64,000 nt of DNA from Roseimaritima ulvae (GTDB lineage Bacteria; Planctomycetota; Planctomycetia; Pirellulales; Pirellulaceae), in assembly GCF_008065135.1 (NCBI RefSeq), contig NZ_CP042914.1, positions 5,189,404 to 5,253,403 of the forward strand, given 5' to 3'. A program made the translations under genes and the position numbers. Numbering within the stretch: position 1 is the stretch's first letter; each line of letters begins with the position of its first letter. Of the stretch, positions 6,563 through 63,699 are shown one piece after another. The notes beneath the pieces are model-generated. The model was not told the DNA's origin. It was given only the letters and a program-made list of their open reading frames with translations, and searched no databases.

Positions 6563-6619
6563 GTAGCTACGCTCGCCAGAGCGTGGGGCATCACGTAGCT
6601 GCGCTCGCCAGAGCGTGGA
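6563..6619 (+). repeat. Two CGCCAG-loop hairpin repeats in an operon gap
   Basis: Two direct 25-bp copies (6563-6587 and 6595-6619). Each is GTAG plus a 7-bp stem around the loop CGCCAG: arms CTACGCT/AGCGTGG in the first and CTGCGCT/AGCGTGG in the second, counting G-U pairs. They sit in the 100-bp gap before the isomerase gene and could affect mRNA processing or termination within the operon. Confidence 0.75.
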
Positions 6620-6647
6620 ATCCCTCCACCTACCCAAACTAAAACAC

Positions 6648-7466
6648 ATGAAATCCTGCATCACAGTCAGTCTGGTCGAAGAAGCTCGCGGCGGTCCTTT
6701 TGTGTTGTGGGACGGATTGCGAGCAGCTTGCGAATTGTCCGCGCGGCTGGGTTACGACGCGATCGAAATCTTTGCTCCCGGCCCCGATGCGGTCGACCCG
6801 GAGGAACTGAAAAACCTGCTGGCCGATCACAGTCTGGAACTGGCGGCGGTGGGCACCGGAGCGGGCTGGGTCAAGCACCAGTTGCAATTGGCCGACGCCG
6901 ACGCGACCAAACGGCAGCAAGCCAAAGACTTCGTGCGTTCGATGATCGATTTCGGCGGCCCGTTTGGCGCCTTTGCGATCATCGGTTCGATGCAAGGCCG
7001 CCACGACGCGACGGTCGACAAACCTACGGCGCTGGGGTACTTGGCCGAAGCTCTGGAGGAATTGGGCGAGCACGCCGCGCAGTACAACGTGCCGCTGATT
7101 TATGAACCGCTGAATCGCTACGAAACCAATCAGGTCAACACAGTGCAGCAGGGCGTCGAGTTGCTGGAGGGACTGTCGACGGGCAACGTCAAACTGCTGT
7201 GCGACCTGTTCCACATGCAGATTGAAGAACGCAATGTGGCCGAGGCCTTAAAGACGGGCGGTCAGCACGTCGGCCACATCCACTTTGTGGACAGCAATCG
7301 GCGTCCGGTCGGCGAAGGCCACATGGACTACCGCGACATCATCGCGGCCTTGCGATCGATCAAGTACGAAGGCTATCTATCAGCCGAAGCGTTTCCCTAC
7401 CCCACGCCCCAAATCGCCGCCGAACAAACCATGCGAGCCTACGACTACTGGACCAGCGCCACGTAG
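6648..7466 (+). CDS. Sugar isomerase/epimerase, xylose-isomerase-like TIM barrel
   Basis: 272 residues from the ATG at 6648. An in-frame ATG at 6615 lies inside the preceding hairpin repeat and is unlikely. The sequence has the acidic and His metal site of AP-endonuclease-2-like barrels: YEPLNRYETN, LLCDLFHM, HIHFVDSNR and SAEAFP. Families with this site include tagatose/psicose 3-epimerases and hydroxypyruvate isomerases. It is the last gene of the carbohydrate operon. It may epimerise a ketose or open a lactone, but the sequence does not decide. The stop TAG lies in the GTAG edge of a downstream hairpin repeat. Confidence 0.8.
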   Translation: MKSCITVSLVEEARGGPFVLWDGLRAACELSARLGYDAIEIFAPGPDAVDPEELKNLLADHSLELAAVGTGAGWVKHQLQLADADATKRQQAKDFVRSMIDFGGPFGAFAIIGSMQGRHDATVDKPTALGYLAEALEELGEHAAQYNVPLIYEPLNRYETNQVNTVQQGVELLEGLSTGNVKLLCDLFHMQIEERNVAEALKTGGQHVGHIHFVDSNRRPVGEGHMDYRDIIAALRSIKYEGYLSAEAFPYPTPQIAAEQTMRAYDYWTSAT

Positions 7467-7541
7467 CCTAGGCTTCCAGCCTGGGAGCCACTCGTGCCCA
7501 GGCTCCGCCTGGGTACGTAATGCATCCGAGGCTCCGCCTCG
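7463..7541 (+). repeat. Cluster of TCC-triloop hairpins at operon end
   Basis: Three hairpins share the loop TCC with different but complementary stems: CCTAGGCT/AGCCTGGG (7467-7485, preceded by GTAG at 7463), CCCAGGC/GCCTGGG (7497-7513) and CGAGGC/GCCTCG (7527-7541). They directly follow the last operon gene and may act as a terminator or 3' mRNA stabiliser. No U-tract follows. Confidence 0.7.
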
Positions 7542-7565
7542 ACACCTACGTGCAGGCAGGCGGGG

Positions 7566-7750
7566 GACGTGAAATGTATTAATGACGGATTCACTTCACT
7601 CTCCCTCTGGGAGAGTCGAGCGTCAGCGAGGAGAGGGCGACCGCGCCGCCGCAAAAGATCCTCCCCTCGCTAAGGCTCGACCCTCCTTAAAAAGGAGGGT
7701 GAAGCAAGCGGCCCCAAGGTCCAATGCTGCCGTAATACCTTTCACGTCCC
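7566..7750. mobile_element. MITE-like 185-bp palindromic element, copy A
   Basis: The element begins GACGTGAAATGTATTAATG and its right end read in reverse begins with nearly the same sequence (GGGACGTGAAAGGTATTACGG, split over 7731-7751), giving imperfect inverted termini. Inside are two hairpins, CTCTCCC-TCT-GGGAGAG near 7600 and ACCCTCCTT/AAGGAGGGT near 7680-7700. A full second copy is at 62558-62750. No coding potential is seen. Non-autonomous mobility is inferred from the terminal repeats and copy number. Confidence 0.6.
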
Positions 7751-7788
7751 GAGCCTGCGGGACAGTGTGTTCCCAGGCAGAGCCTGGG
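7746..7788 (+). repeat. Two further small hairpins beside the MITE-like element
   Basis: GTCCCG/CGGGAC with loop AGCCTG (7746-7763) and CCCAGGC/GCCTGGG with loop AGA (7772-7788). They fill the gap between the carbohydrate operon and the convergent DUF481 gene, so a terminator role for either strand is possible. Confidence 0.55.
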
Positions 7789-7812
7789 GACAAGTAAATG
7801 ACACCGCGATAC

Positions 7813-8793
7813 CTAAAACTTGTACAACAACAGCATCGAATAGAACAGATCGCGAGGCAGCGCGCCTTGCGGGGTGCTGTCGTAGCGATTGGTGGCGGCC
7901 AGCTTGAGGCTCAGGTTATCGCTGTCATCTAACAGAATCTCCCAGCTGATGTCGCTGACCAAACGATAGTCCGCGAAATCGCCCCAGTTGGGAAAGTAAT
8001 CGATCTTGGCTTTCAGCTTCTGTTGGCTGGTGATTTGATGTTCGGCTTCGACGCCAAACAGGGCTTCCGGAACCCAGGCGTCGTCCGGAGCACCGATCTC
8101 GCGCGACGCACCAGCACCAAAGCGGGTCACGACGGTCGATTCGTCATTGCGGAACCAGTGGTAACCAGCACCACCGTTCAAGTTCAAACGCAGGTCAAAC
8201 GGCCGGAACTCATTCCATTCCAATCCCAGCTTGCCAAACGCCGACCAGCGACTGTCGCCCAATAGGCGGTCGTAATCGAAATTGACGCGGCCGTAATCCT
8301 GAGTCACTTCGCCGCCGGTCTTGGTGCGGTAGTAGTCGAAATCGATGCCAAAGGTATACCGCTCGGTTTCCCGTTTCAGTTCGGCTCCGGTCTGCAGGCT
8401 AAGCGAGTTGGTGTTGCCTTCACTGGCGTTTAATCCAAATTCCGCGCTGTTCGTCCAACCGCTCCATGCCCACATCCAGGGATAGCTGTACCAGCGGCGT
8501 GTTTCTTCGGCCAGCGGCAGCGGTTCCTGAATTTCCACGGCTACTGATGCGGGTGCTGGGGGCGAAGTCGGTGCGGGTAGTGGAGCGACCGAGGAACCGA
8601 CCGCAGGTGCACCGCCGGGCTGGCCCAATTCGGCAAAATCCACCTGGGTGACAGGAGGAGCCGCGGGATCGCTTTCCGTACCGAACATCCAGCTCATTTG
8701 CGCCGCGGCGGAAGCGCTAAACAGCATCCCCGACAGCAGCAATACAAGCCCCACAATGGACTGCCGATGCAGAAATAGACTAGGGAAATTCAT
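7813..8793 (-). CDS. DUF481 family outer-membrane protein
   Basis: 326 residues with an N-terminal signal peptide (LVLLLSGMLFSASAAA, cleaved near residue 32), a Pro/Ala-rich linker at about 50-95, then alternating beta-strand sequence to the C-terminal LLLYKF, which ends in Phe as in outer-membrane barrels. The body matches DUF481/YdiY-like proteins: FGLNASEGNTNSLSLQTGAEL and the late KLKAKIDYFPNWGDFADYR. These are salt- or acid-induced outer-membrane proteins of unknown function. The gene stands alone, convergent with the carbohydrate operon and divergent from moxR. Confidence 0.8.
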   Translation of the reverse strand: MNFPSLFLHRQSIVGLVLLLSGMLFSASAAAQMSWMFGTESDPAAPPVTQVDFAELGQPGGAPAVGSSVAPLPAPTSPPAPASVAVEIQEPLPLAEETRRWYSYPWMWAWSGWTNSAEFGLNASEGNTNSLSLQTGAELKRETERYTFGIDFDYYRTKTGGEVTQDYGRVNFDYDRLLGDSRWSAFGKLGLEWNEFRPFDLRLNLNGGAGYHWFRNDESTVVTRFGAGASREIGAPDDAWVPEALFGVEAEHQITSQQKLKAKIDYFPNWGDFADYRLVSDISWEILLDDSDNLSLKLAATNRYDSTPQGALPRDLFYSMLLLYKF

Positions 8794-8965
8794 GACGCAC
8801 TCGTTCGCAAAAACAATAATCGGCCTCCGCTGCGTTGTCGCTGCAACGGTCCGTAGCGGGGGTTTAGCAAAACCACGGCCGACACGTCACCATTGATTTG
8901 TCTACCATAGGGAGCCAGCGGACGGTCCCGCTTCTCGCTCCCGTTCTTCAAGGTTCTGTCTTCCG

Positions 8966-9937
8966 ATGTCTGTCGCTCCTGAGATGACCGTGCAAGCCGT
9001 CGCCGAGCTATCGCGGCGAGTGATCGCCAACGTGGAACAGGCCATCGTTGGCAAACGCAAACAATTGGTGCTTTCGATGGTGGCCTGGCTGTCCGGGGGC
9101 CACGTCTTGCTGGAAGATGTACCGGGAGTGGCCAAGACAATGCTGGCACGGGCCCTGGCTCGCAGCCTGGGATGCCGGTTTAAACGCGTTCAGTGCACCC
9201 CGGACCTGCTGCCCAGCGACGTCACGGGAACTTCGATTTTTAATCAGAAGACCAGCGATTTCGAATTCCGTCCCGGCCCGATCTTTTCCCAAATTTTATT
9301 GGCCGACGAAATCAACCGGGCCACCCCGCGGACCCAGGCGGCACTGCTCGAAGCGATGGCCGAGGGTCGCGTGACGGTCGACGGCACGACGCATACGCTG
9401 CGGAAACCTTTTCTGGTCGTGGCCACACAAAACCCCATCGACCACGAAGGCACGTTCCCGCTGCCCGAAGCCCAACTGGACCGCTTTATGATGCGTTTCA
9501 GCCTGGGGTATCCATCGGCCGAAGAGGAACTGCGGATGCTGGAAATGTTGCAGTTCCGGCACCCCGTCGAAGGGCTCAAGGCGGTAGCCACGGCCGATGA
9601 GATGGTCGCCGCGCAGCAGGCCATCCGCCAGGTGCACGTGGACGAAAAAATCCGCCAGTACGTGCTACAGATCGTGCATGACTCACGGCAACACTCGGAT
9701 TTGGCGCTGGGCGGAAGCCCGCGGGCAACGATTGCCTTGTTTCGCTGTGCTCAGGCCATGGCGGCGATTCGCGGGCGTGCCTTTGTGGAACCCGATGATG
9801 TGAAACGAATCGTTGCACCGGTGATGACGCACCGCGTGATCGTGCGACCGGAAAGCCGGTTGCGGAAAGTCACGCCGGAAAAAATCGTCAGTGAAATCCT
9901 GTCCGAAATCGCTGTTCCCACGATCGCCGCCCCCTGA
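8966..9937 (+). CDS. MoxR family AAA+ ATPase
   Basis: 323 residues, cytoplasmic. Walker A is the variant VPGVAKTMLA, Walker B is LLADEINRATPRTQAALLEAM, and the sensor ATQNPIDHEGTFPLPEAQLDRF is the MoxR hallmark. MoxR ATPases act as chaperone-like activators, usually with a DUF58 protein and VWA proteins in cell-envelope or stress functions. Its stop overlaps the start of the next gene (TGATG at 9935-9939), so the two are translationally coupled. Confidence 0.93.
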   Translation: MSVAPEMTVQAVAELSRRVIANVEQAIVGKRKQLVLSMVAWLSGGHVLLEDVPGVAKTMLARALARSLGCRFKRVQCTPDLLPSDVTGTSIFNQKTSDFEFRPGPIFSQILLADEINRATPRTQAALLEAMAEGRVTVDGTTHTLRKPFLVVATQNPIDHEGTFPLPEAQLDRFMMRFSLGYPSAEEELRMLEMLQFRHPVEGLKAVATADEMVAAQQAIRQVHVDEKIRQYVLQIVHDSRQHSDLALGGSPRATIALFRCAQAMAAIRGRAFVEPDDVKRIVAPVMTHRVIVRPESRLRKVTPEKIVSEILSEIAVPTIAAP

Positions 9938-11397
9938 TGGCCCACGCTCACCCTAACGCCGACCCCAGCAGCAAGCCTAGCAGCGGCGCTGCCGACGACC
10001 GTCTGGGCGATGAAGACCTGCCGGCCGCCGCGGAGCCTCCGCCGGCAACGACGGCCACCGTCAGCGACGACCGCGGCCCGGTGAGTCTGCTGGGCTGGGC
10101 GGCGATCGTGGCCTCGTTGCTGTTGCTGGGGATGCTGTTTGGCGCCGCGCTATGGCTGTACGCCGCGTATGCCGCAGTAGGGATGCTGCTGGCGAATCGG
10201 CTGTTGGCGCAGGCCTGGAGTCGCAGCGTGACGGCCGTACGCACCGCCGGAATGCTGGAAGTGGAAGTCGGGGCCGTGGTGCCGATCGAAATCGAAGTCC
10301 GCAATACGGGCCGGTTGCCGATCGTTTGGATGCTGGCCGAAGATCTGCTGCCCCGCAAAGCGTTGATGTACAACCCGCCGGCGCTGGAGGTCGAAGGAGA
10401 ACGGTTGCAGGTGTTTTTGCTGCCGCCGGGCGCCAGTCGGTTCGTGCGATATCGCCTCCGCTGCAACCGTCGCGGCTATTACCAAATCGGTCCCACTGTG
10501 CTGGAAACCGGCGACCTGATGGGGCTGCATCGCCGTTACCGTGTGGGCGCCACGCCGCAGTACTTGATGGTGATGCCGCACACGGTAGCGTTGAGCGGGT
10601 TCGACGTGGCCTCGCGGCGGCCCATCGGTGAGGTCCGAATTCGCGAACGGATTCTGGAAGACCCCTCGCGGCTGCAGGGCATCCGGCAGTGGCAGCCCGG
10701 CGATGCGATGCGGCAAGTCCATTGGGCGGCCACGGCACGCACCGGCCAGCTTCACAGCAAAATCTACGAACAGACGTCGGTCGCTGGCGCCACGCTGGTG
10801 ATCGACTTGCATCGTGCCAGCAATCCCGCCCGGCACGAACCCGTGCGGACAGAATTGGCGATCACCATGGCCGCTTCGATCGCCGAGGCGTTGTATGAGA
10901 TGAATCAACCGGTGGGCTTGGTTAGCAACGGTCGCGACGCCGCCGACCGCATTCGGGGGGAAGGCTGGGCGGGCGACTTTCGCACCCGCGCGATCGCCCA
11001 GCAGCAGGCCAGGATGAAGTCCGACGACGATCGCTTGCGTCCCGTGGTGCTGCCGGCCGGTCGCGGCCCGGTCGCCTTCCGCGATCTCCAGCGCCAACTA
11101 GCTCGACTGGAACGCACCGATGGGTTGACGCTGGCCGAACTGCTCATTGAGAGCGAACACCGACTGGCCCGCGACACGACGCTGCTACTGATCCTGCAGC
11201 GCTGCAGCGACGCCACGGCCGTCGCCGTGCTGGGTATGGCCCGTCGCGGCTGGGCCGTCAGCGTGATCATCAATACCTTCGACCAGCACGAATTTTCCAC
11301 CGCCGCCGGGCCGCTGGTCGCCGGGGGGGTTGCGGTCATGCATCTGCAAAACGAGGAAATGTTGCCAAGTGTCTGCCGGCAGGTGGTGCTGCGATAG
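9937..11397 (+). CDS. DUF58 domain membrane protein, MoxR partner
   Basis: 486 residues. A low-complexity cytoplasmic N-terminus (1-45) is followed by a hydrophobic hairpin at about 50-92, then a beta-rich segment and the DUF58 core with IRQWQPGDAMRQVHWAATAR near residue 250. A VWA-like C-terminal half follows. It overlaps moxR by one base, the classic MoxR-DUF58 pair, but no transglutaminase or VWA gene follows. A second, shorter DUF58 protein lies at 54767-55660. The client is unknown. Confidence 0.9.
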   Translation: MAHAHPNADPSSKPSSGAADDRLGDEDLPAAAEPPPATTATVSDDRGPVSLLGWAAIVASLLLLGMLFGAALWLYAAYAAVGMLLANRLLAQAWSRSVTAVRTAGMLEVEVGAVVPIEIEVRNTGRLPIVWMLAEDLLPRKALMYNPPALEVEGERLQVFLLPPGASRFVRYRLRCNRRGYYQIGPTVLETGDLMGLHRRYRVGATPQYLMVMPHTVALSGFDVASRRPIGEVRIRERILEDPSRLQGIRQWQPGDAMRQVHWAATARTGQLHSKIYEQTSVAGATLVIDLHRASNPARHEPVRTELAITMAASIAEALYEMNQPVGLVSNGRDAADRIRGEGWAGDFRTRAIAQQQARMKSDDDRLRPVVLPAGRGPVAFRDLQRQLARLERTDGLTLAELLIESEHRLARDTTLLLILQRCSDATAVAVLGMARRGWAVSVIINTFDQHEFSTAAGPLVAGGVAVMHLQNEEMLPSVCRQVVLR

Positions 11398-11452
11398 CAA
11401 CTGACAATTCCCCCTAACGCACCAAAATCGGTTATCTTACGTAGAACGCTGG

Positions 11453-11479
11453 AACGGCAAATTTTTCGAACTTGCCGTT
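11453..11479 (+). terminator. Hairpin after the moxR-DUF58 operon
   Basis: AACGGCAA at 11453-11460 is complementary to TTGCCGTT at 11472-11479, with an 11-base loop. It lies 55 bp after the DUF58 stop and upstream of the protease gene. There is no U-tract, so a terminator role is tentative. Confidence 0.4.
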
Positions 11480-11592
11480 ATCTGCCGGCTTTCTTACCAT
11501 TCCACCGGCGTGTTACCGCCCCGCTGACAGCGAAAAATCTTAAAACAAAATCTCAAAGCCCTGCCAACCTTTTCTCAATACGGATTAAACGT

Positions 11593-13650: not shown

Positions 13651-13668
13651 GGGCAGCAAGGTAGCCAT

Positions 13669-13757
13669 GTAGGCCGGAACAAGCCGTGCGCTGTTCCGGC
13701 ATGGCCAACCAAACGGCAACACCCTGCCGGAACGGCGCACAGCTTGTTCCGGCCTAC
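13669..13757. terminator. Large inverted repeat between convergent prc and tsaD
   Basis: A 32-base arm at 13669-13700 (starting GTAGGCCGGAACA) is the reverse complement of 13726-13757 with two mismatches, separated by 25 bases. The left arm also folds by itself (GCCGGAACA/TGTTCCGGC). Placed between two convergent genes it can act as a bidirectional terminator. It starts with the same GTAG edge as the smaller repeats. Confidence 0.6.
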
Positions 13758-13786
13758 TGCCTCACAGCAAGAAATTCCCACCCGTT

Positions 13787-21012: not shown

Positions 21013-21295
21013 CGCTTCTGAAATCTCGATTGGTGTGTGAGCGGCTCCATCGGAGCAGGGGGTGGCTATTGTAAGCCAAAAGCCGCTGGTTGTTTATCGG
21101 CCTGCGGGGGAGCGTGCCGAGGGTCTGACGGTAGCCGAAGTCGCTAGACTTTGGACCGTTTCGCCGCCCGGTCCCATCTCGGCGAGATCGCCCTCCCGGG
21201 GGCATTGGTATCTACACATCTTCCTTCACCCTCCTTGAAAAGGAGGGTGAAGGCAGGGCGTCGGGCAATTCAATGCTGCCTAGCCAGACGCAGCA
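21013..21295. other. Intergenic region with two repeat families
   Basis: No credible gene is seen. A CGCCAG-family hairpin (loop CGCTAG here; arms CCGAAGT/ACTTTGG) is at 21131-21155. A CTTCACCCTCCTT/AAGGAGGGTGAAG hairpin at about 21225-21252, followed by an ATTCAATGCTGCC motif, is a partial copy of the right half of the MITE-like element. Confidence 0.6.
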
Positions 21296-23739: not shown

Positions 23740-23845
23740 GTAGCATGGGCCCCGGTACGTGGAGAAAAAGTAGCATGGGCCCCCGGCCCGTGAAGACGTG
23801 TACCTCCGCGGCGATCGTGACACACGGCCCGGGGGACCATGCTAC
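23740..23845. repeat. Three GTAGCATGGG-family hairpins
   Basis: Forward copies are at 23740-23762 (degenerate) and 23770-23792, with an inverted copy at 23823-23845. The canonical copy is GTAG, then CATGGGCC, loop CCC, then GGCCCGTG. They lie between the permease start and the GDPD stop, with the inverted pair able to form a longer stem. Confidence 0.7.
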
Positions 23846-23869
23846 GGGGGATGCTACGGGACTACGCTA

Positions 23870-24727
23870 CTAGCCCGCGACGGGCTCCGCGGGCTCGACT
23901 TTGGCGGCTTCTTGCGTGATCGCTTGCCGGATAAACGCGGGGCGGTCGGTGGTGAGCGAATCAGCGCCCCAGCCGGCCAGGGTGCGAGCCGGATCGGCGT
24001 CGTTAACCGTCCAGACATGGAACTCTTTGCCCGCCTGGTGCACGGCGTCGACAAATTTCGGCCCCAACACTTCCAGGTTGCCCTGGGTGCCCAGGCCCGT
24101 GGCGGACGTCTGCTGCAAAATTTCCAGCACCCGGCTGCGGCTGGGTGTCCACTGCGTCGTGACCTTGTTTTGCTTGTAACTGGTCAACCAATTGGCTTTG
24201 TATTGCGGCATCATCCGCCGCGCCCCCCGCACAACCGCCTGATCAAAAGCGATGATCACAATCTGCTCGGCGGCCAGCCCGGAAGCCGTCAATTGCTTTT
24301 TCAGCTCGGGCAGGATTTCCGGGCCACACTTAATTTCCACAAAGATCTGCTTGCCGGCCGGGATCGTGGCCAGCACTTCCTGCAACGTGGGGATGGTTTC
24401 CCCTTGGTACCGCGGATCTTTCCAGCTGCCCACGTCCAAAGCCCGCAATTCGGCCAGCGTCGACTTGGCCACCTGCAGCACCGGTTGCTGCGGTGCGACG
24501 CGTTTGGTGGTTTTGTCGTGAATACACACGATCTGGCCATCGGAGGTTAGGTAAAAATCTCCCTCTATCGCGTCGGCCTGTTGCTGCCACGCTTGTCGGA
24601 AAGCCGCCAACGTGTTTTCAGGAGCATCGAACGAAGCGCCACGGTGGGCGACAATTTTCTGCCCCATAACCGACTCGGTGACGAACATGGGAAGCAGTAA
24701 AGCGAAGGTGGCAATCAAGTAACGCAA
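23870..24727 (-). CDS. Secreted glycerophosphodiester phosphodiesterase
   Basis: 285 residues from a TTG at 24727, chosen because AGGA lies 8 bases upstream and the signal peptide ([15 protein letters not shown]) then sits at the N-terminus. A longer in-frame extension reads into intergenic repeats. The GDPD motifs [32 protein letters not shown] and IFVEIK supply the His/Glu/Asp calcium-site residues. The enzyme releases glycerol-3-phosphate from phospholipid head groups in the periplasm. It has its own transcript. Confidence 0.85.
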
Positions 24728-25456
24728 GATTTGTTTCCTAGGGAAGGGCCCACGCTCGAACGGCTGCCAAGCACAGGCAAGCCGCCCCCCGATGCGTTCG
24801 GGGACCAGCGCAGGCGGGAAGTCAGGTGGGAGGATTATAGACGTTGCCAATGGGCACCAGCGTAAACGGTCGATGAAGCTGGTGTAAAGAAATCGCGAAC
24901 CCCAGCGAAAAATTTCCCCCACCGCTGGGATGCGCGGGGACGGATGCGCGGGGACTGTCCCCGGCGCTTGGCTCTTAGGCCCGGAGGGCCGGCATAGCCC
25001 TTGCCGGGGCTGGCAAGCCCCGGTATCCGCCTTTAACAAAACGAAGGCCCGGAGGGCCGGCACAAAGGATCGCTGCGCGGCGCAATAGCAGAACTGTGTC
25101 GGCCCTCCGGGCCTAGCCGGCTGGTGACGGGTGCGCGGGGACGACGGATGCGCGGGGACAGTCCCTGGCTCTTTGGCCCAAACCTTTCTAAACCGACACG
25201 GCCCGGGGGACCATGCTACTTTTTTCACGGCCCGGGGGACCATGCTACTTATTTTCCCTAGTTTGCCTGGGCTGCATGGCGTGGGTGGATTCCCCATGCC
25301 CTGGCGGACTCGAGCCCCAAAAAGCATTTCGCTCTGCATGGGGCGCGCGATCGCAACTCCACACAACTGCCGCGAAATGGCACGGGGATTGCGATGCTAT
25401 GATGACAGGAAGGCAGTGGTCTCGATATTTCTTACAGGCTGATCAAGGGTGGTCGG
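24728..25456. other. 730-bp intergenic repeat field
   Basis: No credible gene is seen. It contains GGCCC-GGA-GGGCC hairpins at 24978-24990 and 25046-25058 and the inverted form at 25101-25113; a CTTGCC/GGCAAG hairpin at 25000-25017; several ATGCGCGGGGAC motifs near 24935-24960 and 25130-25160; and inverted GTAGCATGG-family copies at 25197-25219 and 25226-25248. The last 200 bp hold the promoter region of the next gene, where no clear box is seen. Confidence 0.6.
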
Positions 25457-37417: not shown

Positions 37418-37519
37418 GTAGCGGAAGTCGCCAGACTTTGGACCGCTACGTCCAATTCAAAACCCGAAATCCAAAGTCCAAAGTCCAAAAATTCTCCAAA
37501 CTCTGGCGAGTTCGGCTAC
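37418..37519. repeat. Inverted pair of CGCCAG-loop hairpins
   Basis: A direct copy at 37418-37442 (arms CGGAAGT/ACTTTGG) and an inverted copy at 37495-37519 (arms TCCAAACT/AGTTCGG). Each has its own hairpin and the two can pair with each other. Between them lies a CCAAAGTC direct repeat. They occupy the gap before the membrane-anchored protein gene and supply no stop codon here. Confidence 0.7.
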
Positions 37520-40577: not shown

Positions 40578-40762
40578 GTAGCCGATCTCGCCAGAGATTG
40601 GACTGGGGTGAAGAGCGGGAAGGGTGCGTCGGACTTGCAGGTCGTTAGAGCCATTCTTCGCAGCCGAAACCCGTCCCCTCGCTAAGGCTCGACCCTCCTT
40701 AAGAAGGAGGGTGAAGCAAGCGGCCCCAAGGTCCAATGCTGCATTAATTCACTTCACGTCCC
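40578..40762. repeat. CGCCAG hairpin and right-half MITE-like element
   Basis: 40578-40602 is a CGCCAG-loop hairpin with arms CCGATCT/AGATTGG. 40675-40762 is a right half of the MITE-like element with the CTCCTTAAGAAGGAG hairpin and the TTCACTTCACGTCCCG terminus. It fills the gap between the ABC fusion and the convergent hydrolase. Confidence 0.65.
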
Positions 40763-44346: not shown

Positions 44347-44724
44347 CAAAGTAGCATGGGTCCCCGGCCCGTGCAGTGGCAACGTAGCATGGGCCCCCGG
44401 CCCGTGCAGTGGCAAAGTAGCATGGGGCCCCGGCCTGTGTCCAACCGTTTCTAAACCGTCTACACAACCTCCACGCAATCATTTGCGTCAGGCCAGACAC
44501 GGGCCAGGGGCCCATGCTACCGAGACGACCGACCTCTCCCCAGCTTCCCCAGGCTGCCGACTTGCGTTGGTCTTCTCTATTTCCCCAGGACACCTTTGCC
44601 CGACTCTTTCTTGTTGTCGCTGGACTGAACAGCGGAGCAGTCCGATAGAGATTGTGTGCTCGATGTATGCAACGAGCGCCCTCACATCTCAGTTCCTGCT
44701 CGGCTACGAAAGAACCGTCAGCTT
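44347..44724. repeat. GTAGCATGGG repeat field and 51-bp dispersed repeat
   Basis: Direct hairpin copies are at 44351-44373, 44384-44406 and 44417-44439; an inverted copy is at 44498-44520. Between them, 44445-44495 is a 51-bp repeat found again at 48402-48452. The remaining 200 bp before the next gene contain no recognisable gene. Confidence 0.65.
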
Positions 44725-55660: not shown

Positions 55661-55667
55661 GGTCTAT

Positions 55668-55754: not shown

Positions 55755-57179
55755 TTAGCGCGCCATGCCTTGGGACATGCGCCAGTGCTTGGCTTGTTGG
55801 CGGCGGTCTTGAGCGTCGGTGATCTGCTCCCAGGCCAAGCTGGCGTCGACCAGAGCGTCTTCGGGCGTTTTGTCTCCATCCAGAACCGCGATCACTTCTC
55901 GGTCCAACGCCTGCAGGTATTGATCGGCCGCAGGGATCCGCAGCAAAGGCCGCACGTATTGGTTTGCCAGTTGCTGCTGCAGCACGTCGTCGTAGGCGGT
56001 GGCCTGGGAAGTGCTTCCCACGCTCGCACCGCTGTCGTCGGTGTGCGTGGCGGTGAAGCCGGGAACCGATTCCCGCATACTGGCGGTACCTTCGTTGCCG
56101 CTGAGCCAGCGCAGAAAGCTTTCCGACGCCGAGGTCTGGCGACAGCCGCTGGCGATCGAAGCCAGTGGCCCCTGACCGGTCAGCAACACCCATTCCTGCC
56201 GTCGCCCCTCGGCTCGCGTTTGCCATTGTTGGTCGCCGCCGGTGAAGACTTCATTGCTCGAGGGCAACGGCGCGATAATCAGGTCCGCGTCGCTCGCTAG
56301 GTTGTCCAGCGTCATCGGCCAGCTGATCGCCAGTTGCAATCGCCCTTCGCTGGCCGCTTGCCAGACGGCCGCCGGGTCCATTCGCTGTTCGGGATAATGA
56401 GCGGCGTCACGCTGCAGCTCTCGCAGAGCCCGCAGGTACGGGGCGGTGGCCAGTACCGGTCGCAGTTCGTCGCCGCGAAACAACCAACTGGTGCCGCAGT
56501 AACTGTTGGCTCGGTACAGCATGGCAACGGCGGCCCAACCGTCGGCCAGCGGTTCGGCCGCTTGCCCGGGTTCCAGGGCGGCGACGCGTTGACCGTAGGT
56601 TTCCCAGGTCCAGTCCTGAGGAGATTCGTCAGCGGTAGGCGGAAGCAGCAACACGGGCTGGACCGCACCAAGCGGCACGCCGATGGTTTCGCTGCCGTAC
56701 TTCATCACGCCCTGCCGCAGGGCCGGCAGCAGCACGGGGGCCTCGCTCTGCTCGTCGACGCGTGTCGAGAGGAATTGATTGCCCAGCCGCCGCACCGCGC
56801 CGGCGCTTTGCAGCGCCCCGGTGTGAGCCGCGGGATAAATCAGCACATCGTGCTGAGGAGCCGATTCGACCAGGCGCTGATTCACGGCGGTTCGTACGCC
56901 GACGTCCTCACTGGCCGGAGCGTTACTTTCCGGAGCGTTACTTTCTGGAGATTCGATGGCGGTGATTTCGATCGGCTGATCCGAAACCGCCAGCCAAGCT
57001 CGCTGCACGGCCTCGGCCTCTTCGGCGCTGCCAACCATCGCCACTCGCAACGGCACGTTGCTGCTGACCGCCGGAGCTGAGTCGGTGTCGGGCGAATCGG
57101 CTTTTCGGCAGCCGACCCAGGTGACGGCCAAGCCCACGCCCAGCAGGAAGCGAAGCAGATTAGAAAGATTGCGATTCAC
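55755..57179 (-). CDS. Extracellular solute-binding lipoprotein
   Basis: 474 residues with a lipoprotein signal (LGVGLAVTWVGC, lipid Cys about 24). The body follows family 1 solute-binding proteins: LRVAMVGSAEEAEAV start, ETIGVPLGAVQPVLLL, WTWETYGQRVAAL and GRLQLAISWPMTL. A repeat SPESNAPESNAPASE lies near residue 80. No ABC permease or ATPase lies beside it. It is divergent from xylulokinase by 145 bp, which suggests a sugar ligand. The ligand is not established. Confidence 0.75.
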   Translation of the reverse strand: MNRNLSNLLRFLLGVGLAVTWVGCRKADSPDTDSAPAVSSNVPLRVAMVGSAEEAEAVQRAWLAVSDQPIEITAIESPESNAPESNAPASEDVGVRTAVNQRLVESAPQHDVLIYPAAHTGALQSAGAVRRLGNQFLSTRVDEQSEAPVLLPALRQGVMKYGSETIGVPLGAVQPVLLLPPTADESPQDWTWETYGQRVAALEPGQAAEPLADGWAAVAMLYRANSYCGTSWLFRGDELRPVLATAPYLRALRELQRDAAHYPEQRMDPAAVWQAASEGRLQLAISWPMTLDNLASDADLIIAPLPSSNEVFTGGDQQWQTRAEGRRQEWVLLTGQGPLASIASGCRQTSASESFLRWLSGNEGTASMRESVPGFTATHTDDSGASVGSTSQATAYDDVLQQQLANQYVRPLLRIPAADQYLQALDREVIAVLDGDKTPEDALVDASLAWEQITDAQDRRQQAKHWRMSQGMAR

Positions 57180-57324
57180 AGGAACTTTGGTCGGTTAAAG
57201 GGGAGCAGAGCCGCGGGTCCGATAAAAATCCCGGAGAAATTTACCGACGGTTCCTCACTGCTTCTCGTACGCAGTATAGTACCAGCCGGTTCGATTTCTT
57301 CCTGTCCAAGTTTGGTTGCAGCTG

Positions 57325-58845
57325 ATGAGTTTTTATCTTGGTATTGATGTGGGCACCAGTGGCACGAAAACCCTGTTGATCGACGAAGCGGGGGTGGTCC
57401 AAGCCGAGGCATCGGCGGAATATCCGCTGCATCAACCCCGCGCGGGCTGGACGGAACAGGACCCGGAAGATTGGTGGCAAGCGACTGTCACGACTGTCCG
57501 GCAAGTCATCAAAGCCGCTAAATGCAAACCGGCCGACGTCCGCGCCATCGGGCTCAGCGGCCAAATGCACGGCTCGGTATTCCTCGACAAGAAAGACCGT
57601 GTGCTCCGCCCGGCGCTGCTCTGGAATGACCAACGCACGGTGGCCGAATGTGAGGAAATCACTCAGCGGGCCGGCGGCCGCAAGGCACTGATCAAAATGG
57701 TCGCCAACCCGGCCCTGACCGGATTTACCGCCCCCAAAATCCTCTGGCTGCGGAATCACGAACCGAAAAAATTTGATCGGCTGGCTAAAGTTCTGCTGCC
57801 CAAAGACGAAATCCGTCGCCGCCTGACCGGGGAGTACGCGTCGGAGGTCAGCGATGCCAGCGGCACGCTGCTGTTGGACGTGGTCAAACGCAACTGGAGC
57901 AAAAAACTGCTGGGCAAACTGGATCTCGATCCCGACCTGTTGCCGCCCGTGTTCGAAAGCGAAGATGTGACCGGGACGTTAACCACAGCGGTCGCTGAAC
58001 AATTGGGGCTGACCACCGATTGCAAAGTCGTGGGCGGTGCGGGCGACTGTGCGGCCGGGGCGGTTGGTAACGGTGTTGTCCGCAGCGGCGTGCTGAGCAC
58101 TTCGGTGGGCACCTCCGGCGTGATGTTTGTGCACAGCGATAAACCGCAGTACGACAGCGAAGGCCGACTGCACACGTTCTGTCATGCGGTCCGCGGCAAG
58201 TGGCACATGATGGGCGTGAATCTGACCAGCGGCGGTTCGCTGCAGTGGTGGGTCGATTCGATACTACAAGGTTTGGCCGGGATCGATACCAAACAGCGTT
58301 ATGAAGCGGCGACGCGCGAAGCCGAACAAGCGGCCGCGGGCAGCGGAGGATTATTGTTCCTGCCGTATCTAAATGGCGAACGCACCCCACATGCCGACCC
58401 GCATGCTCGCGGCGCCTTTGTGGGCTTGAACACAACCCACGGGCGCGGCCAATTAACCCGCGCCGTCATGGAAGGCGTGACGTTTGCCCTGCGGGACAGC
58501 CTCGAAATCATCCGCTCGCTGGACGTGCCGGTCAAAGAGATTCGCGTCTCCGGTGGCGGCAGCAAAAATCCGCTGTGGCGGCAGATGCAGGCCGATGTGT
58601 TCGGCAAGAAGGTCGCGACCTTGGCCGTCGAACAGGGGCCGGCGTACGGCGTGGCGCTGTTGGCCGCTGTTGGCGATGGCGCTTACAAGTCGATTGAGCA
58701 GGCCTGCAAGGCGACCATCAGCGTGGCCGAAACCACGCCCGCCCAACGCAAGGCCACCAACACCTACAACGCCTTATTCCCGATCTACCAGCGACTGTAC
58801 AGCAGCCTCAAACAGGACTTCGCCAGCCTCGCGGAACTACAGTAG
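57325..58845 (+). CDS. xylB: Xylulokinase (FGGY family)
   Basis: 506 residues from ATG at 57325; TTG at 57316 would add three. GIDVGTSGTKTLL (ATP loop), GLSGQMHGSVFLD and ALLWNDQRT are the xylulokinase signature, and GGAGDCAAGAVGNG and RVSGGGSKNPLWRQMQADV complete the FGGY pattern. It phosphorylates D-xylulose for the pentose phosphate pathway. No xylose isomerase is adjacent. Divergent from the solute-binding lipoprotein. Confidence 0.92.
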   Translation: MSFYLGIDVGTSGTKTLLIDEAGVVQAEASAEYPLHQPRAGWTEQDPEDWWQATVTTVRQVIKAAKCKPADVRAIGLSGQMHGSVFLDKKDRVLRPALLWNDQRTVAECEEITQRAGGRKALIKMVANPALTGFTAPKILWLRNHEPKKFDRLAKVLLPKDEIRRRLTGEYASEVSDASGTLLLDVVKRNWSKKLLGKLDLDPDLLPPVFESEDVTGTLTTAVAEQLGLTTDCKVVGGAGDCAAGAVGNGVVRSGVLSTSVGTSGVMFVHSDKPQYDSEGRLHTFCHAVRGKWHMMGVNLTSGGSLQWWVDSILQGLAGIDTKQRYEAATREAEQAAAGSGGLLFLPYLNGERTPHADPHARGAFVGLNTTHGRGQLTRAVMEGVTFALRDSLEIIRSLDVPVKEIRVSGGGSKNPLWRQMQADVFGKKVATLAVEQGPAYGVALLAAVGDGAYKSIEQACKATISVAETTPAQRKATNTYNALFPIYQRLYSSLKQDFASLAELQ

Positions 58846-58849
58846 TAGC

Positions 58850-58926
58850 GTAGCATGGGCCCCTGGCCCGTGTACCTTGACCGTGATGGACTTCGAGAGT
58901 GCACGGGCCGCCGGGGCCCGTGCTAC
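58850..58926. repeat. Inverted pair of GTAGCATGGG-family hairpins
   Basis: A direct copy at 58850-58872 (arms CATGGGCC/GGCCCGTG, loop CCT) and an inverted copy at 58902-58926 with arms CACGGGCC/GGCCCGTG, where a T-G pair has become C-G. They lie between convergent xylB and tadC and start 5 bp after the xylB stop. Confidence 0.75.
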
Positions 58927-58938
58927 AACACCTACAAC

Positions 58939-59916
58939 CTACTGCGACAACAGGTTGCGGTACATATTGATACCGGCCGGTCCGACCAACACCACGAAGA
59001 TCCCGGGGAAGATAAACAGGACCAGCGGGAAGATCAGTTTCACGGCCGTCTTGGCGGCTTTTTCTTCGGCCATCTGCCGGCGTTTGGTCCGCATCGAATC
59101 GCTTTGCACGCGAAGGGCTTGGCCGATGCTGCTACCAAATTTGTCGGCTTGAATCAGGATCGAGGCCAAAGCTTTCAGGTCGTCCACGCCGCTGCGATAG
59201 CCCAGAGCTTGGAGCACTTCGGCGCGGGCCCGGCCGTATTGCAGTTGAGCATTAGCGACGACGAACTCTTCGGCGATCTGCGGGTAGGACTTGGCCAATT
59301 CTTCCGATACCTTCCGCATCGCTTGGTCCAGCCCCAAACCGGCTTCCACACACACGACCATCAAGTCCAAGGCATCGGGCAGGCCCAGGAAGATCGCATT
59401 CTTGCGGCGGCTGATCAGGAACGACAACAGGAATTCGGGGATGAAGTAGGCCACGCCGCCGCCGACCAGGGTTTTGGTCAACAAGCCCAGCGTCAGGCCG
59501 GAGGTCAGCAGCCCAAAGATGCCGCCGAAGAACAGCCCCACGCAGGCGAAGATCAACTGGCCGCCTTTAAAGACCACCGGAGCTGCTTCGCGGCGGAAGC
59601 CGGCATGCAGCAGTCGTTCGCGGAGGGCGCTCAGTTCTTTTTCGTTTTTGGGTTTGACCGAGCTGGCCAGCGGGCTGGTGGCGCGTTCCAGCACGGCGGT
59701 CAGGGCTTCGGCCTTTTTCTTCTCGCGATCATCCGGTTCGCCTTCGCCGGGCGTGCGGCGACGGGGATTGCGGAGTTCGTCCAGACGCGCTTCGGCTCGC
59801 GGTTTGTCTTCGCCGCTCATCCGGCCAAGCACTAGCCATGCAACGGCTGACACTGCAATGAACAGCGAGACCGGCACCAGATAAGCGATCATCGAGGTTT
59901 CGGCGACAAGTAACAT
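58939..59916 (-). CDS. tadC: TadC-like type II secretion F domain protein
   Basis: 325 residues. Membrane helices at about 10-30, 140-175 and 300-325; cytoplasmic T2SF domain in between with FLGLPDALDLMVVCVEAGLGL and the Arg-rich RVQSDSMRTKRRQMAEEKA. It is the inner-membrane platform for Flp/Tad pilus assembly. It is the last of three genes tadA-tadB-tadC, 67 bp after tadB. No Flp pilin, RcpA or TadZ is in this window. Confidence 0.88.
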   Translation of the reverse strand: MLLVAETSMIAYLVPVSLFIAVSAVAWLVLGRMSGEDKPRAEARLDELRNPRRRTPGEGEPDDREKKKAEALTAVLERATSPLASSVKPKNEKELSALRERLLHAGFRREAAPVVFKGGQLIFACVGLFFGGIFGLLTSGLTLGLLTKTLVGGGVAYFIPEFLLSFLISRRKNAIFLGLPDALDLMVVCVEAGLGLDQAMRKVSEELAKSYPQIAEEFVVANAQLQYGRARAEVLQALGYRSGVDDLKALASILIQADKFGSSIGQALRVQSDSMRTKRRQMAEEKAAKTAVKLIFPLVLFIFPGIFVVLVGPAGINMYRNLLSQ

Positions 59917-59983
59917 GGAAACAGACTTTCTTGATTGACGGGCGCGGAACGCGTGGAGGAAATCTTGGGACGGAACGTCGGGG

Positions 59984-60958
59984 TTAAACTTTGATCGTGA
60001 CGATCTTGCGAATCACCAGGGCTCCCACGATCTGGGTAATAATCGCCATGATCAGCAGTTTTTGACCGATCGAATCGGTGAACAAGGTCATCACGTATTC
60101 TTTGTTCATCCACAGCATCACCAGGAACAGCAGCGGCGGCATGGCCAACAGCACAATCCCGCTCAATCGGCCTTCACCGGTCAAGGCTTGGACCTGTCCC
60201 AAAATTTGAATACGTTCGCGAACCAGGTGTCCGATCTTGTCGAGGATTTCGGCCAAGTCGCCACCGGTTTGTCGCTGCAGGATGACCGCGGTAGCAAAGA
60301 ACCGCACGTCCATGTTGGGGACTCGCGAGGCCATGTCGTCGAGCGCTTCCTCCAATGGAATCCCAAAGTTCTGTTCTTGGAACACGCGGCCGAATTCGAT
60401 GCTGATCGGTTCATCCATTTCCGAAGCGATCAAACCAAAGCCGGCAGCCAGCGAGTGGCCGGCTCGCAGCGAACGACCGAGCAGTTCCAGGGCATCGGGC
60501 AACTGGCGACCAAATTTGGCCAACCGTCGGCCGCGTTTCATTTTCAGCCAGATCAGCGGCGTGGCACCGGTGATCAAACCCGCGATGGGAGCCAGCAGGA
60601 TGGGCACGCCAGGCGTTACCGAAACCGCAACCGTGCCGGCGGCAAAGGCCGCCACGCAGATCCCGATGAACTGAGCGGGAGGCATGGAGACGTTGGCCTG
60701 GTCCATATAGGTGCCCAGAGCCGGCATCGAACTGGTGATTGCGCTGGCCCAGTTTTTGGTATCATCCAAGCCACCGGCCAGCAATAGCGAAGGTTCGTCC
60801 TCGCCGGCTTTGCCGCCCTTGGGGCGTCGTGTCGCGAGCGCTTGCAGACGGTCTTCGGCGGCCGTGTTTTGGCTCCCGGGAGTGATCGCCGTGACGGCAA
60901 ATGCGACGAGCGCGGCAAATCCGATTCCGATGGCGGCGATGACAAGGATGGGCATCAT
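59984..60958 (-). CDS. tadB: TadB-like type II secretion F domain protein
   Basis: 324 residues. An N-terminal helix, two helices near 105-145, the T2SF domain with LPDALELLGRSLRAGHSLAAG and PNMDVRFFATAVILQRQTGGDL, and two C-terminal helices. It pairs with TadC as the membrane platform driven by TadA. It lies between tadA (72 bp upstream) and tadC. Confidence 0.9.
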   Translation of the reverse strand: MMPILVIAAIGIGFAALVAFAVTAITPGSQNTAAEDRLQALATRRPKGGKAGEDEPSLLLAGGLDDTKNWASAITSSMPALGTYMDQANVSMPPAQFIGICVAAFAAGTVAVSVTPGVPILLAPIAGLITGATPLIWLKMKRGRRLAKFGRQLPDALELLGRSLRAGHSLAAGFGLIASEMDEPISIEFGRVFQEQNFGIPLEEALDDMASRVPNMDVRFFATAVILQRQTGGDLAEILDKIGHLVRERIQILGQVQALTGEGRLSGIVLLAMPPLLFLVMLWMNKEYVMTLFTDSIGQKLLIMAIITQIVGALVIRKIVTIKV

Positions 60959-61030
60959 GACAGGGGTTCCCGGTCTGGGGACAAATGTGAAGTAAGCGTT
61001 GGAAGGAACAATTGACGAACGACGAAACGA

Positions 61031-62353
61031 TTACGCTTGCATGATCACACGTTCGCGGAACGCACTGGCCGGCAGTCGCACTCCCGAAGCTTCCAACTTG
61101 GGCATAAACGTGGGCCGCACGCCGGTGCATTCGAAGTGGCCGAAAGCTTTGCCGCTTTCGTCCACGCCTTCCTGGACGTAGCGATAGATGTCTTGCAACA
61201 CGATCGTGTCTTGTTCCATGCCCACGACCTCGGTGATCGCGGTCACACGGCGTGGTCCACCCTGCAGGCGGTTAGCTTGAATCAACACATCAACTGCACC
61301 GGAAATCTGCGAGCGAATCGCTTTGGGCGGCATTTCAAAGCCGGCCATCATGACCAGGGTTTCCAGACGGGAAATCGCATCCCGCGGCGTATTGGCGTGG
61401 ACCGTGGTCAACGAGCCGTCGTGGCCCGTGTTCATGGCCTGCAGCATGTCCAACGTTTCCCCACCACGGCATTCGCCGATGATGATCCGTTCGGGACGCA
61501 TACGCAGCGCGTTACTGACCAGGTCGGTGGCGGACACTCGCCCGTTGCCTTCGATGTTGGCCGGTCGAGTTTCCAGCCGCACCACATGGTCTTGTTGCAG
61601 TTGCAATTCCGCCGCGTCTTCGATCGTCACAATACGGTCGCTGTGACTGATGAAGGAGGACAGTGTGTTGAGCAGCGTGGTTTTACCGGAACCGGTACCG
61701 CCGGCGATGATCATGTTCAAGCGAGCTTTGATACAGCCTTCCAACAACATCACCATCTCGGGCGTGAAGGCGCGATAGTTCAGCAGGTCTTCCAGCTTCA
61801 AGGGATTGCTGCCAAACCGCCGAATACTCATCGCCGCCCCGTCCAGGGCCAGCGGCGGAATGATGGCGTTCACACGGCTGCCATCTTCCAGGCGAGCGTC
61901 GACCATCGGGCAGGTTTCGTCGACACGTCGGCCGACCTTACTGACGATCCGGTCGATGATCTGCATCAAGTGTTTGTTGTCGCGAAACTCCACTTCGGTC
62001 TTCTCCATCTGGCCGCCTTTTTCGACGTAGATGTTTTTCGGACCGTTGATCAAAATATCGCTGATCTTGGGGTCTTTCAGCAGCAGTTCCAGCGGTCCCA
62101 AACCGAAGGTTTCGTCCAGCACTTCCTCGACAATGCGGTCGCGTTCCTGACGGTTCAGCAGCGTGTCTTCGGCATCGCAAAGATGTTCAACAACCATCCG
62201 GATTTCACGCTTCAGCGTGTCACCCTTCATGTCGCCCACCCGCGAGAGGTCTAGTTTGTCGACCAGCTTGCCGTGGATGCGACTCTTGATCTCTTCAAAT
62301 TTGTCTTGACGGCTGGTGTCGGCGGAACGAAGAGGTTGGGTGGGAGTACGCAT
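61031..62353 (-). CDS. tadA: CpaF/TadA-type secretion ATPase
   Basis: 440 residues, cytoplasmic. Walker A is [17 protein letters not shown] near 220. The Asp box and Walker B read [25 protein letters not shown], and the His box is [11 protein letters not shown]. It is a GspE/CpaF family hexameric ATPase that powers Tad pilus assembly. It is first of the three-gene operon. Upstream of its start lies a 500-bp repeat field rather than other tad genes. Confidence 0.94.
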
Positions 62354-62854
62354 TACAATCGGTCCTTGAAACGGCGGGGAAGGTCGCGGAGGCGATGTGA
62401 GTTGGGGTCATGCGGATCGTGCGGGCTACGCAAGCGGCGTAGACTGCTGGGAACCAATCGATCCACGGAAAGATAGCTCACGCTTAGAGCCGCGGCCAAA
62501 AAAGATCTTGGTCGTTGTTCGCTCCGCGAACATAACGCAAGGTCGCCGATCGCTCTGGACGTGAAGTGTATTAATGACGGATTCACTTCACTCTCCCTCT
62601 GGGAGAGTCGAGCGTCAGCGAGGAGAGGGCGACAGCGCCGCTGCAAAAATCATAAAAAGCCTCCCTTCGCTAATGCTCGACCCTCCTTGAAAAGGAGGGT
62701 GAAGAAAGAGCCCCCGAGGTTTAACGCTGCCGTAATACTATCGACGTCCCCCGTGAACTAAACGTTCTGTTCGCGGAGCGAACAACGACCATGGGTTCTG
62801 TTCGCGGAGCGAACAACGACCATGGGTTCTGTTCGCGGAGCGAACAACGACCAT
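62354..62854. other. 500-bp intergenic repeat field
   Basis: Contains a TCC-triloop hairpin at 62516-62532, the second full MITE-like element at 62558-62750, and three 31-bp direct repeats (62764-62855) ending at the zinc-ribbon gene's stop. About 160 bp next to tadA hold no recognisable gene or promoter box. Confidence 0.65.
62558..62750. mobile_element. MITE-like palindromic element, copy B
   Basis: 193 bp, same layout as 7566-7750: terminus GACGTGAAGTGTATTAATGA, hairpin CTCTCCC/GGGAGAG near 62590, hairpin CCCTCCTTGAAAAGGAGGG near 62681-62699, and a right end CCGTAATACTATCGACGTCC complementary to the left. Between the hairpins it has an AAAATCATAAAAAG insert absent from copy A. Confidence 0.6.
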
Positions 62855-62855
62855 T
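62764..62855. repeat. Three 31-bp direct repeats with GGA triloop
   Basis: Period 31 at 62764, 62795 and 62826. Each unit holds TGTTCGC-GGA-GCGAACA (62768, 62799, 62830) followed by ACGACCATGG. The third ends at the zinc-ribbon stop. No spacers vary between units, so this is not a CRISPR array. Confidence 0.8.
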
Positions 62856-63313
62856 TAGCCGCAGCGGGGGCAGCGGAGGCGGTATTGGGTGAGGCCTCGC
62901 GAGCGGACGGCGACCTGTAGCCGTTCGCCACAACGCGGACAAAAATCGTCTTCGGTTTCCGCCGCCGGTTTGTCCTGACAGGCCGCGCAGCGGACCACGT
63001 CCGGAAAAATTTCTAATCGCTCCGGCGGAATCGGCTTCTGACACAGCTCACAACGCCGCGCCTCACCCCAAACTTCCGGATCCTCTTCGTCCACCGCCGC
63101 TGCCGCGTGCAGGCTGAGCGACGTGGCGCCGCAGCGGTCGCAGGGCAGCGCGGGCAAAGCGGCCGCGAACAGCTCCCGCACCAAATCCAATTCCGGGTTC
63201 TTGGCACGCTTAAGCTTGCCCAGCGAACGCAGCATCACCAACTGTTCGGAATACCCCACCAAACGTTGCCGCGAACAGGCGGCGCATCGCAGTGATTGAA
63301 GTGTTTCGGACAT
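62855..63313 (-). CDS. Triple zinc-ribbon protein with DksA/TraR-type finger
   Basis: 152 residues from ATG at 63313; the longer frame starts 31 residues earlier without support. Six Cys-x2-Cys knuckles form three sites: Cys10/13 with 58/61; Cys88/91 with 109/112, where CQKPIPPERLEIFPDVVRC is the C4 finger seen in DksA/TraR; and Cys125/128 with 148/151. A helical charged region (20-57) links the first pair. It may bind RNA polymerase or nucleic acid, but the coiled-coil tip of DksA is missing. Function not known. Confidence 0.75.
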   Translation of the reverse strand: MSETLQSLRCAACSRQRLVGYSEQLVMLRSLGKLKRAKNPELDLVRELFAAALPALPCDRCGATSLSLHAAAAVDEEDPEVWGEARRCELCQKPIPPERLEIFPDVVRCAACQDKPAAETEDDFCPRCGERLQVAVRSRGLTQYRLRCPRCG

Positions 63314-63354
63314 CGGCGGGCCGTGCGGAGGGGGCCTGAAGAAATTGTATCCTG

Positions 63355-63390
63355 GTGCTGGGGCGGCCGCCAAAGCGACCGCCCCAGCAC
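63355..63390. terminator. Perfect 12-bp hairpin upstream of zinc-ribbon gene
   Basis: GTGCTGGGGCGG (63355-63366) and CCGCCCCAGCAC (63379-63390) are exact complements with a 12-base loop. It lies between the partial minus-strand gene and the zinc-ribbon gene, so it may terminate the former. Confidence 0.45.
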
Positions 63391-63606
63391 ACAGTAAAAA
63401 CTTCACTGCGAAGCACCGACCGAGACGATTGACCCAGTAACCGTCGCGGCAAGTTGGTTTGCTCCGACCTAGGAGGGAGGCAGGCGAACGATTCCCGCAA
63501 GCCGCTCGCCAACAGTGAAGTTCTTAAATGGTTTGCCTTGTGTTGAACAGGGAAATACCATCATCGCTTCGGCGGTGTCAACGCGGAAAAATCGAAAAAT
63601 TCGCCT

Positions 63607-63699
63607 GTAGCCGAACTCGCCAGAGTTTGGAAGCGGCCGGTAGCCGAACTCGCCAGAGTTTGGAAGCGCAACGGTCCAAAGTCTGGCGACTTCGGCTAC
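63607..63699. repeat. Three CGCCAG-loop hairpins at the end of the partial gene
   Basis: Direct copies 63607-63631 and 63640-63664 (arms CCGAACT/AGTTTGG) and an inverted copy 63675-63699 (arms CCGAAGT/ACTTTGG). The GTAG edge of the inverted copy forms the TAG stop of the gene at its right. The remaining bases from 63391 to 63606 hold nothing recognisable. Confidence 0.75.

Follow-up and report, generated by a model that had tools for sequence, protein, structure and literature searches.

GTAG-tagged REP hairpins with unlike paired arms in Roseimaritima ulvae, and a divergent RAYT clade in its relatives

Nine hairpins in the window

The stretch of DNA analysed here, called the window, comprises 64,000 nucleotides (nt) of the planctomycete Roseimaritima ulvae (contig NZ_CP042914.1), positions 5,189,404 to 5,253,403 of its 8.21-Mb single-contig genome. 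Between the genes of the window lie nine copies of a short hairpin repeat. All nine have the tetranucleotide GTAG at the hairpin foot, and eight of them share the loop CGCCAG, the copy at 21131 having CGCTAG. With a probability of about 0.9, these repeats are GTAG-tagged repetitive extragenic palindromic (REP) elements, the DNA hairpin substrate of a REP-associated tyrosine transposase (RAYT), which is an HUH-type tyrosine transposase of single-stranded DNA. The nine copies are:

6563 to 6586, plus strand: REP hairpin of the CTAC-foot type (inner GCT), loop CGCCAG
6595 to 6618, plus strand: REP hairpin with a variant CTGCGCT stem, in tandem with the 6563 copy
21131 to 21154, plus strand: REP hairpin of the CCGA-foot type (inner AGT), loop CGCTAG
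37418 to 37441, plus strand: REP hairpin with a CGGAAGT stem that has a single G.G mismatch; forms an inverted pair with 37496, of which it is the left arm
37496 to 37519, minus strand: REP hairpin of the CCGA-foot type (inner ACT); completes the pair with 37418 as its right arm, the two arms being unlike
40578 to 40601, plus strand: REP hairpin of the CCGA-foot type (inner TCT), 9 nt past the end of a gene call
63607 to 63630, plus strand: REP hairpin of the CCGA-foot type (inner ACT), in tandem with the 63640 copy
63640 to 63663, plus strand: REP hairpin of the CCGA-foot type (inner ACT); pairs with 63676 as the left arm, the two arms being unlike and GTAG outside
63676 to 63699, minus strand: REP hairpin of the CCGA-foot type (inner AGT); completes the pair with 63640 as its right arm

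An earlier sequence-only reading had listed nine intergenic hairpins with GTAG, a shared loop and 7-bp stems that differ in sequence and stay complementary. All nine are present, with the tag and loop as described. Seven were placed correctly, and the two inverted copies were off by one nucleotide. Eight stems pair at all seven positions if G.T wobbles are counted (one in each, two at 6595), while the stem at 37418 (CGGAAGT/ACTTTGG) pairs at only six, its G.G mismatch having gone unmentioned. Since the first and last loop bases can also form a C-G pair, the hairpin is better read as an 8-bp stem with a GCCA tetraloop. The intergenic position of all nine holds by our own gene calls, made from codon usage, with overlaps of a few bases between the copies at 6595 to 6618 and 63676 to 63699 and the ends of two gene calls.

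The same nine copies are recovered independently by a covariance model built from RAYT-flanking hairpins of other species, with no training hairpin from the genome of the window. Its matches in the window are exactly these nine (E up to 6.8e-4), and the next best match has an E of 2.7. A scan of the window against Rfam gave no match at gathering scores.

Copy number, placement and stem types

The strict pattern GTAGN7CGCCAGN5GG has 1,214 matches in the genome, as against 3 for the reversed pattern, and the nine copies in the window are not there by chance. The stem types are few and discrete. The outer pairs CTAC/GTGG occur with inner GCT, CGT or CTT and the outer pairs CCGA/TTGG with inner AGT, ACT or TCT, and there is also a CCATGGG type. 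Placement was examined in samples of 1.06 Mb and 1.46 Mb of this genome. In the smaller sample, 157 of 171 copies match the main stem types exactly. Only five of the 171 are contained in gene calls, and gene-end overlaps occur in 17, whereas 82% of random 24-mers fall inside gene calls; in the larger sample, six of 233 copies are inside genes. The copies are thus far from equally frequent inside and outside genes. Among 100 genomes of the same family, the pattern matches at least once in 68 and at least 20 times in 15, the reversed control pattern also having a few matches in many of them.

Covariation and the tetraloop

The compensatory stem changes in the window are real, as the sequence-only reading had noted. 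However, since the stems of the genome fall into a handful of discrete types, these changes reflect a few ancestral stem types and not nine independent events. Independent covariation comes from the hairpins of other species. In 95 distinct planctomycete hairpins that flank RAYT genes, changes on both sides occur at all eight stem pairs, with a covariation score of 0.847, against 0.249 in shuffled sets and at most 0.219 in slid ones. The 93.7% pairing of this set is in part a product of selection, because hairpins were kept only if at least six of eight positions paired. In a set of 181 distinct sequences chosen by a loop pattern and not filtered for pairing, the stem pairs fill the first eight ranks among column pairs, led by the loop-closing pair. 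Neither outcome that the earlier reading had named as a refutation, a lack of covariation or copies as frequent inside genes, was seen, and its proposal of selection on structure is supported.

The loop itself is also conserved. When the loop is left free, a GNNA tetraloop is present in 110 of 122 well-paired hairpins of the same planctomycete set. GCCA does not fit the GNRA rule of RNA tetraloops. Closed by C-G, the loop fits the motif d(cGNNAg), reportedly named among stable DNA tetraloop motifs in the title of a 2002 paper by Nakano et al. The earlier reading had left the selected form as RNA or single-stranded DNA and had not named the element. Because the hairpins flank HUH tyrosine transposase genes and their loop fits a DNA tetraloop and not GNRA, single-stranded DNA is favoured. 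The loop pattern can serve to tell selection on REP DNA from selection on REP RNA.

A RAYT clade in related genomes

A search of 16 genomes with the NCBI REP transposase model yielded weak-scoring genes with matching hairpins. In three genomes of the same family as that of the window (G077, G082 and G078), CTACCGT/CTACGCT-CGCCAG hairpins flank RAYT genes on both sides. In a fourth (G061), the hairpins are on one side only, and one of the two carries GTGG. An alignment of six such RAYT proteins (A2) was used to search the 100 family genomes, of which 20 match at E up to 1e-12, as well as named genome records, which gave 78 loci, mostly from Planctomycetota and Verrucomicrobiota. At 40 of these 78 loci, a GTAG hairpin with complete pairing is found no more than 500 bp from the RAYT (170 hairpins in all), whereas each of four control tags gives 1-4 loci and 1-4 hairpins. 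The verrucomicrobial loci contribute none to this count. They have a variant instead, in which 21 of 23 loci carry GTAG-N8-GNNA-N8 with at most six of eight pairs. In most of the loci L307-L327, the GTAG hairpin can be read as an outer stem of 5 bp with a G.A mismatch step (judged by eye) and a GNNA tetraloop.

The predicted fold of the enzyme agrees with this assignment. An AlphaFold model of one RAYT, made with 58 alignment rows, has a mean pLDDT of 93.5, and for this one model the top Foldseek match is 4ER8, a REP transposase bound to a REP hairpin (E 2.7e-7). The HUH motif, as P[DN]HxH, occurs in 74 of the 78 matched stretches and the motif with the catalytic-type tyrosine, as YI[AG]RNP or YVARNP, in 49 of 78, partial stretches included; the verrucomicrobial L316 has YIAANP. 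For the WQ motif, by motif reading only, Q106 is invariant in the 58 rows, and the residue before it is mostly F or L and is W in at least three. The proteins score below curated cut-offs, with 12.6-19.5 bits for Pfam Y1_Tnp against a cut-off of 23 (four clade proteins) and 35.2-40.2 bits for NF047646 against 80 (the RAYTs of G077, G082, G078 and G061). That a clade spanning Planctomycetota and Verrucomicrobiota scores so low suggests that such systems are undercounted. Among the papers listed by the literature searches, none dealt with this clade of RAYTs or with GNNA loops of REPs; others may exist.

On a tree of 33 RAYTs, from which L301 (a very long branch) and loci with no repeated hairpin are omitted, changes of the hairpin foot, taken as stem positions 2-3, number 11, where shuffles give 21.2; for loop length the numbers are 2 and 8.1. 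None of 500 shuffles is as low for either. REP foot and loop length track the RAYT phylogeny.

Pairing of unlike arms

Inverted pairs with GTAG outside number 237 in the genome of the window and 0 in the control. In the 1.06-Mb sample, 31 of 32 head-to-head CGCCAG pairs join unlike stems, and 29 of the 31 have the same foot. Random re-pairing within foot class predicts 13.1 like pairs in 30, and a count of one or none never arose in 100,000 trials. Tandem pairs, by contrast, are identical in 16 of 27 cases (Fisher p 1.5e-6 against head-to-head pairs). Since the copies of one genome are not independent events, evidence from other lineages matters. Around the RAYTs of 28 loci, a strict count over 54 head-to-head pairs gives 43 in which the arms are set apart by one or more compensated base-pairs and six in which they are identical. 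A looser count, which takes in some chance or degraded hairpins, gives 26 of 35 loci with all pairs unlike, six with all alike and three mixed. The unlike-arm rule is strong but not universal.

Because head-to-head pairs join unlike stem types, the duplex that the two arms can form with each other stays at 8-10 bp. The longest perfect run between arms is of this length in 30 of 31 CGCCAG pairs of the genome itself (8-9 bp in 27) and does not exceed 10 bp in 43 of 54 pairs around RAYTs. A preference for unlike arms in GTAG REPs was published in 2013 (PMC3733652), where it is said to have 'no obvious explanation', protection from SbcCD is suggested and the minimum for SbcCD cleavage is quoted as 8-16 bp. 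The present data fit the SbcCD-protection suggestion and do not prove it. Homologues of SbcD were found only below the cut-off (53.2 and 21.7 bits against 77.65). The recurrence of unlike arms at many RAYT loci, with the longest perfect duplex peaking at 8-9 bp, turns the suggestion into a measurable prediction. With more than 1,200 copies in one genome, the family lends itself well to testing.

Proposed mechanism and alternative explanations

As REP elements, the repeats may work in the following way. Each unit would fold alone on the strand exposed by replication, and the RAYT would read GTAG and the hairpin, cut it and rejoin it, so that REPs or REP pairs would spread between genes. Unlike inner stems in the two inverted arms would let each arm fold by itself and would hold the perfect duplex between them near 8-9 bp, at the low end of the 8-16 bp range for SbcCD. 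The genome of the window lacks the matching RAYT clade, so mobilisation there may now depend on a different transposase or may have stopped. A broader proposal is tentative and somewhat more apt to fail than to hold: that bacteria of the Planctomycetes-Verrucomicrobia-Chlamydiae (PVC) group carry an uncharted RAYT branch whose substrates obey a two-arm code. GTAG and a d(cGNNAg)-type tetraloop would be kept, and paired arms would be matched but unlike inside, each folding alone, with a duplex of about 8-9 bp that evades palindrome-cleaving nucleases. Such a code might be held even where the enzyme is missing.

Several observations weigh against RAYT-moved REPs as the explanation. The RAYT clade has no match in the genome of the window at E 1e-12, the best loose match to A2 (E 0.004) being a different RAYT. 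Across the family, the clade is present in six of the 15 genomes that have 20 or more pattern copies and in 14 of the 85 others, so that RAYT presence and copy number by genome are only weakly linked. The plain 8-bp hairpin is absent from the verrucomicrobial members of the clade, and the perfect run exceeds 10 bp in 11 of the 54 RAYT-flanking pairs. In equilibrium folding, unlike arms still favour one long hairpin (-21.5 kcal/mol) over two hairpins (-5.7 kcal/mol), as against -33.5 kcal/mol for the long hairpin of like arms. The arm rule weakens the long hairpin and does not abolish it, and a complete switch to two hairpins is not supported. The arms are identical while the spacers have diverged (mean identity 0.49 and 0.39, six equal-length comparisons each), so the conserved spacer of REPIN whole-pair amplification is not seen. 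Old copies held by selection or homogenisation fit this pattern better than a recent burst of whole pairs. The genome looks like the home of an old, well-kept REP population whose matching RAYT clade is missing. No transposition was observed.

Selection for an RNA element is improbable. The hairpins would then work at the transcript level, whether by terminating transcription, stabilising 3' ends or offering protein sites, and the covariation would reflect RNA pairing. Such an element would account for the position of the copies, since the nearest gene end is a 3' end for 110 of 160 intergenic copies at a median distance of 28.5 nt, and the G.T wobbles of the REP stems would suit it. However, the T-run of intrinsic terminators is rare here, T4 or A4 adjoining 14 of 171 copies (8%) as against 5% of random intergenic sites, and in co-directional gaps there is no significant strand preference (63 sense, 47 antisense, p 0.15). 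The non-GNRA loop and the position of the hairpins beside DNA transposase genes also argue against it. An apparent bias towards the sense strand among single copies at 3' ends (30 of 33) was dropped as a product of head-to-head geometry, because convergent gaps give 23 to 0 but co-directional gaps 22 to 14. Of 70 single copies, 16 keep a partner with at most two mismatches in 12, as against none at an upstream control and two at random sites. REP hairpins may still have a secondary RNA role.

The absence of the matching RAYT bears on two other explanations. Mobilisation of these hairpins by another Y1 transposase, and not by the RAYT clade of the relatives, is unlikely, although it would explain why the copies stay crisp where that clade is missing. 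A candidate alternative mobiliser is a short IS200-like TnpA at G000:C1:3475529, with five GTAG hairpins downstream that have like loops (CCATGGG-CGCCAG, CCACGGG-CGTCAG). Their stems, however, are not of the CTAC or CCGA types. Nor is a matching RAYT to be found among the 13 Pfam-detected Y1 genes of the genome, none of which has a CTAC or CCGA hairpin within 1 kb; four more matches to the REP transposase model (1844226, 2509330, 3656238 and 5981868) likewise have none. Domesticated orphans, whose RAYT was lost and whose arms selection now keeps for some use to the host (binding of the nucleoid, of gyrase or at the replication fork, for example), are a rather doubtful explanation. The missing RAYT and the identical arms beside diverged spacers agree with it. 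The positions of the copies do not, as they differ from those of the sister genome G083 at comparable gaps: the orthologous gaps there lack the copies at 6563, 6595 and 21131 (the other six were not comparable on that contig), and G083 holds copies where the window has none, with gap-flank identity of 77-78%. In G023, which is also without the RAYT, many of the copies listed are mispaired by eye and there is no strict head-to-head pair.

Relation to known systems

The repeats share with the GTAG REP super-family (Di Nocera et al. 2013, PMC3733652) the GTAG tag, a 6-9 bp stem, compensatory stem sub-families, intergenic position, dimers and a link to RAYTs, by which GTAG REPs are hypothesised there to be moved. 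That account places GTAG REPs in the planctomycete R. baltica and in O. terrae, which may include the present CGCCAG family, and describes many tyrosine transposase genes with flanking repeats in R. baltica. Because REPtrons can be missing by the same account, the lack of a matching RAYT in the genome of the window does not disqualify a GTAG REP. Like REPINs and BIMEs, of which the E. coli Y/Z2 pairs are an example (PMC6006769), the elements include head-to-head unlike REPs near a RAYT. They are distinct in that both arms have the same loop and outer stem, the differences falling in compensated inner pairs, and in that the spacers are not conserved. The RAYTs resemble the TnpA-REP/RAYT subclasses of PMC6006769 in their HUH and tyrosine motifs, REPtron layout and 4ER8-like predicted fold. 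Unlike those subclasses, the planctomycete clade proteins fall below the Pfam and NCBIfam cut-offs, and their motifs (mostly DH[LIM]H, mostly [FL]Q, and YIARNP) match no row of the 12-subclass table. IS200/IS605 ends likewise combine a hairpin and tetranucleotide guide with an HUH Y1 enzyme, but here no element bounded by left and right ends was seen, the hairpins being dispersed singly, in tandem and in inverted pairs. The REP family is of a known kind and well supported. The present analysis contributes the RAYT clade, the reading of the loop as a tetraloop and the counts of unlike arms at RAYT loci; the divergent clade and the unlike-arm rule deserve follow-up.

Other GTAG hairpins and transposases

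Other hairpins with the same tag accompany other enzymes and gene ends. L011 (G000:C1:7135385), a RAYT of the genome of the window, has GTAG-CCTGACT-CTCCG-AGTCGGG hairpins on both sides and forms a REPtron of another family. IS200-like TnpAs with a Y..Q..HH motif, like subclass 1.2, also carry GTAG hairpins (20 genes examined), on both sides in L107, L118 and L120 and on one side in L001, L108, L111 and L117. Subclass 1.2 is listed with no REPs in Table 1 of PMC6006769.

A second GTAG hairpin family, GTAG-CATGGGC-CCCCG-GCCCGTG, lies in the window at 23740-25248, 44351-44520 and 58850-58926 and is of high copy number, with 96 pattern matches in 1.46 Mb. It follows the unlike-arm rule less, since five of its 12 head-to-head pairs have identical stems. 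A third family, CCTAGGC-TTCCA-GCCTGGG, has one copy in the window at 7463-7485 and is often found at gene ends (11 in 1.46 Mb, at a median of 1.5 nt from the stop, n=8). Tail-to-tail neighbours can overlap by 8 nt and share the palindrome GTAGCTAC, as in L134/L141 (G082:C13:3671-3710) and L180 (5016-5055, G077), and the sample from the genome of the window has two cases of such an overlap.

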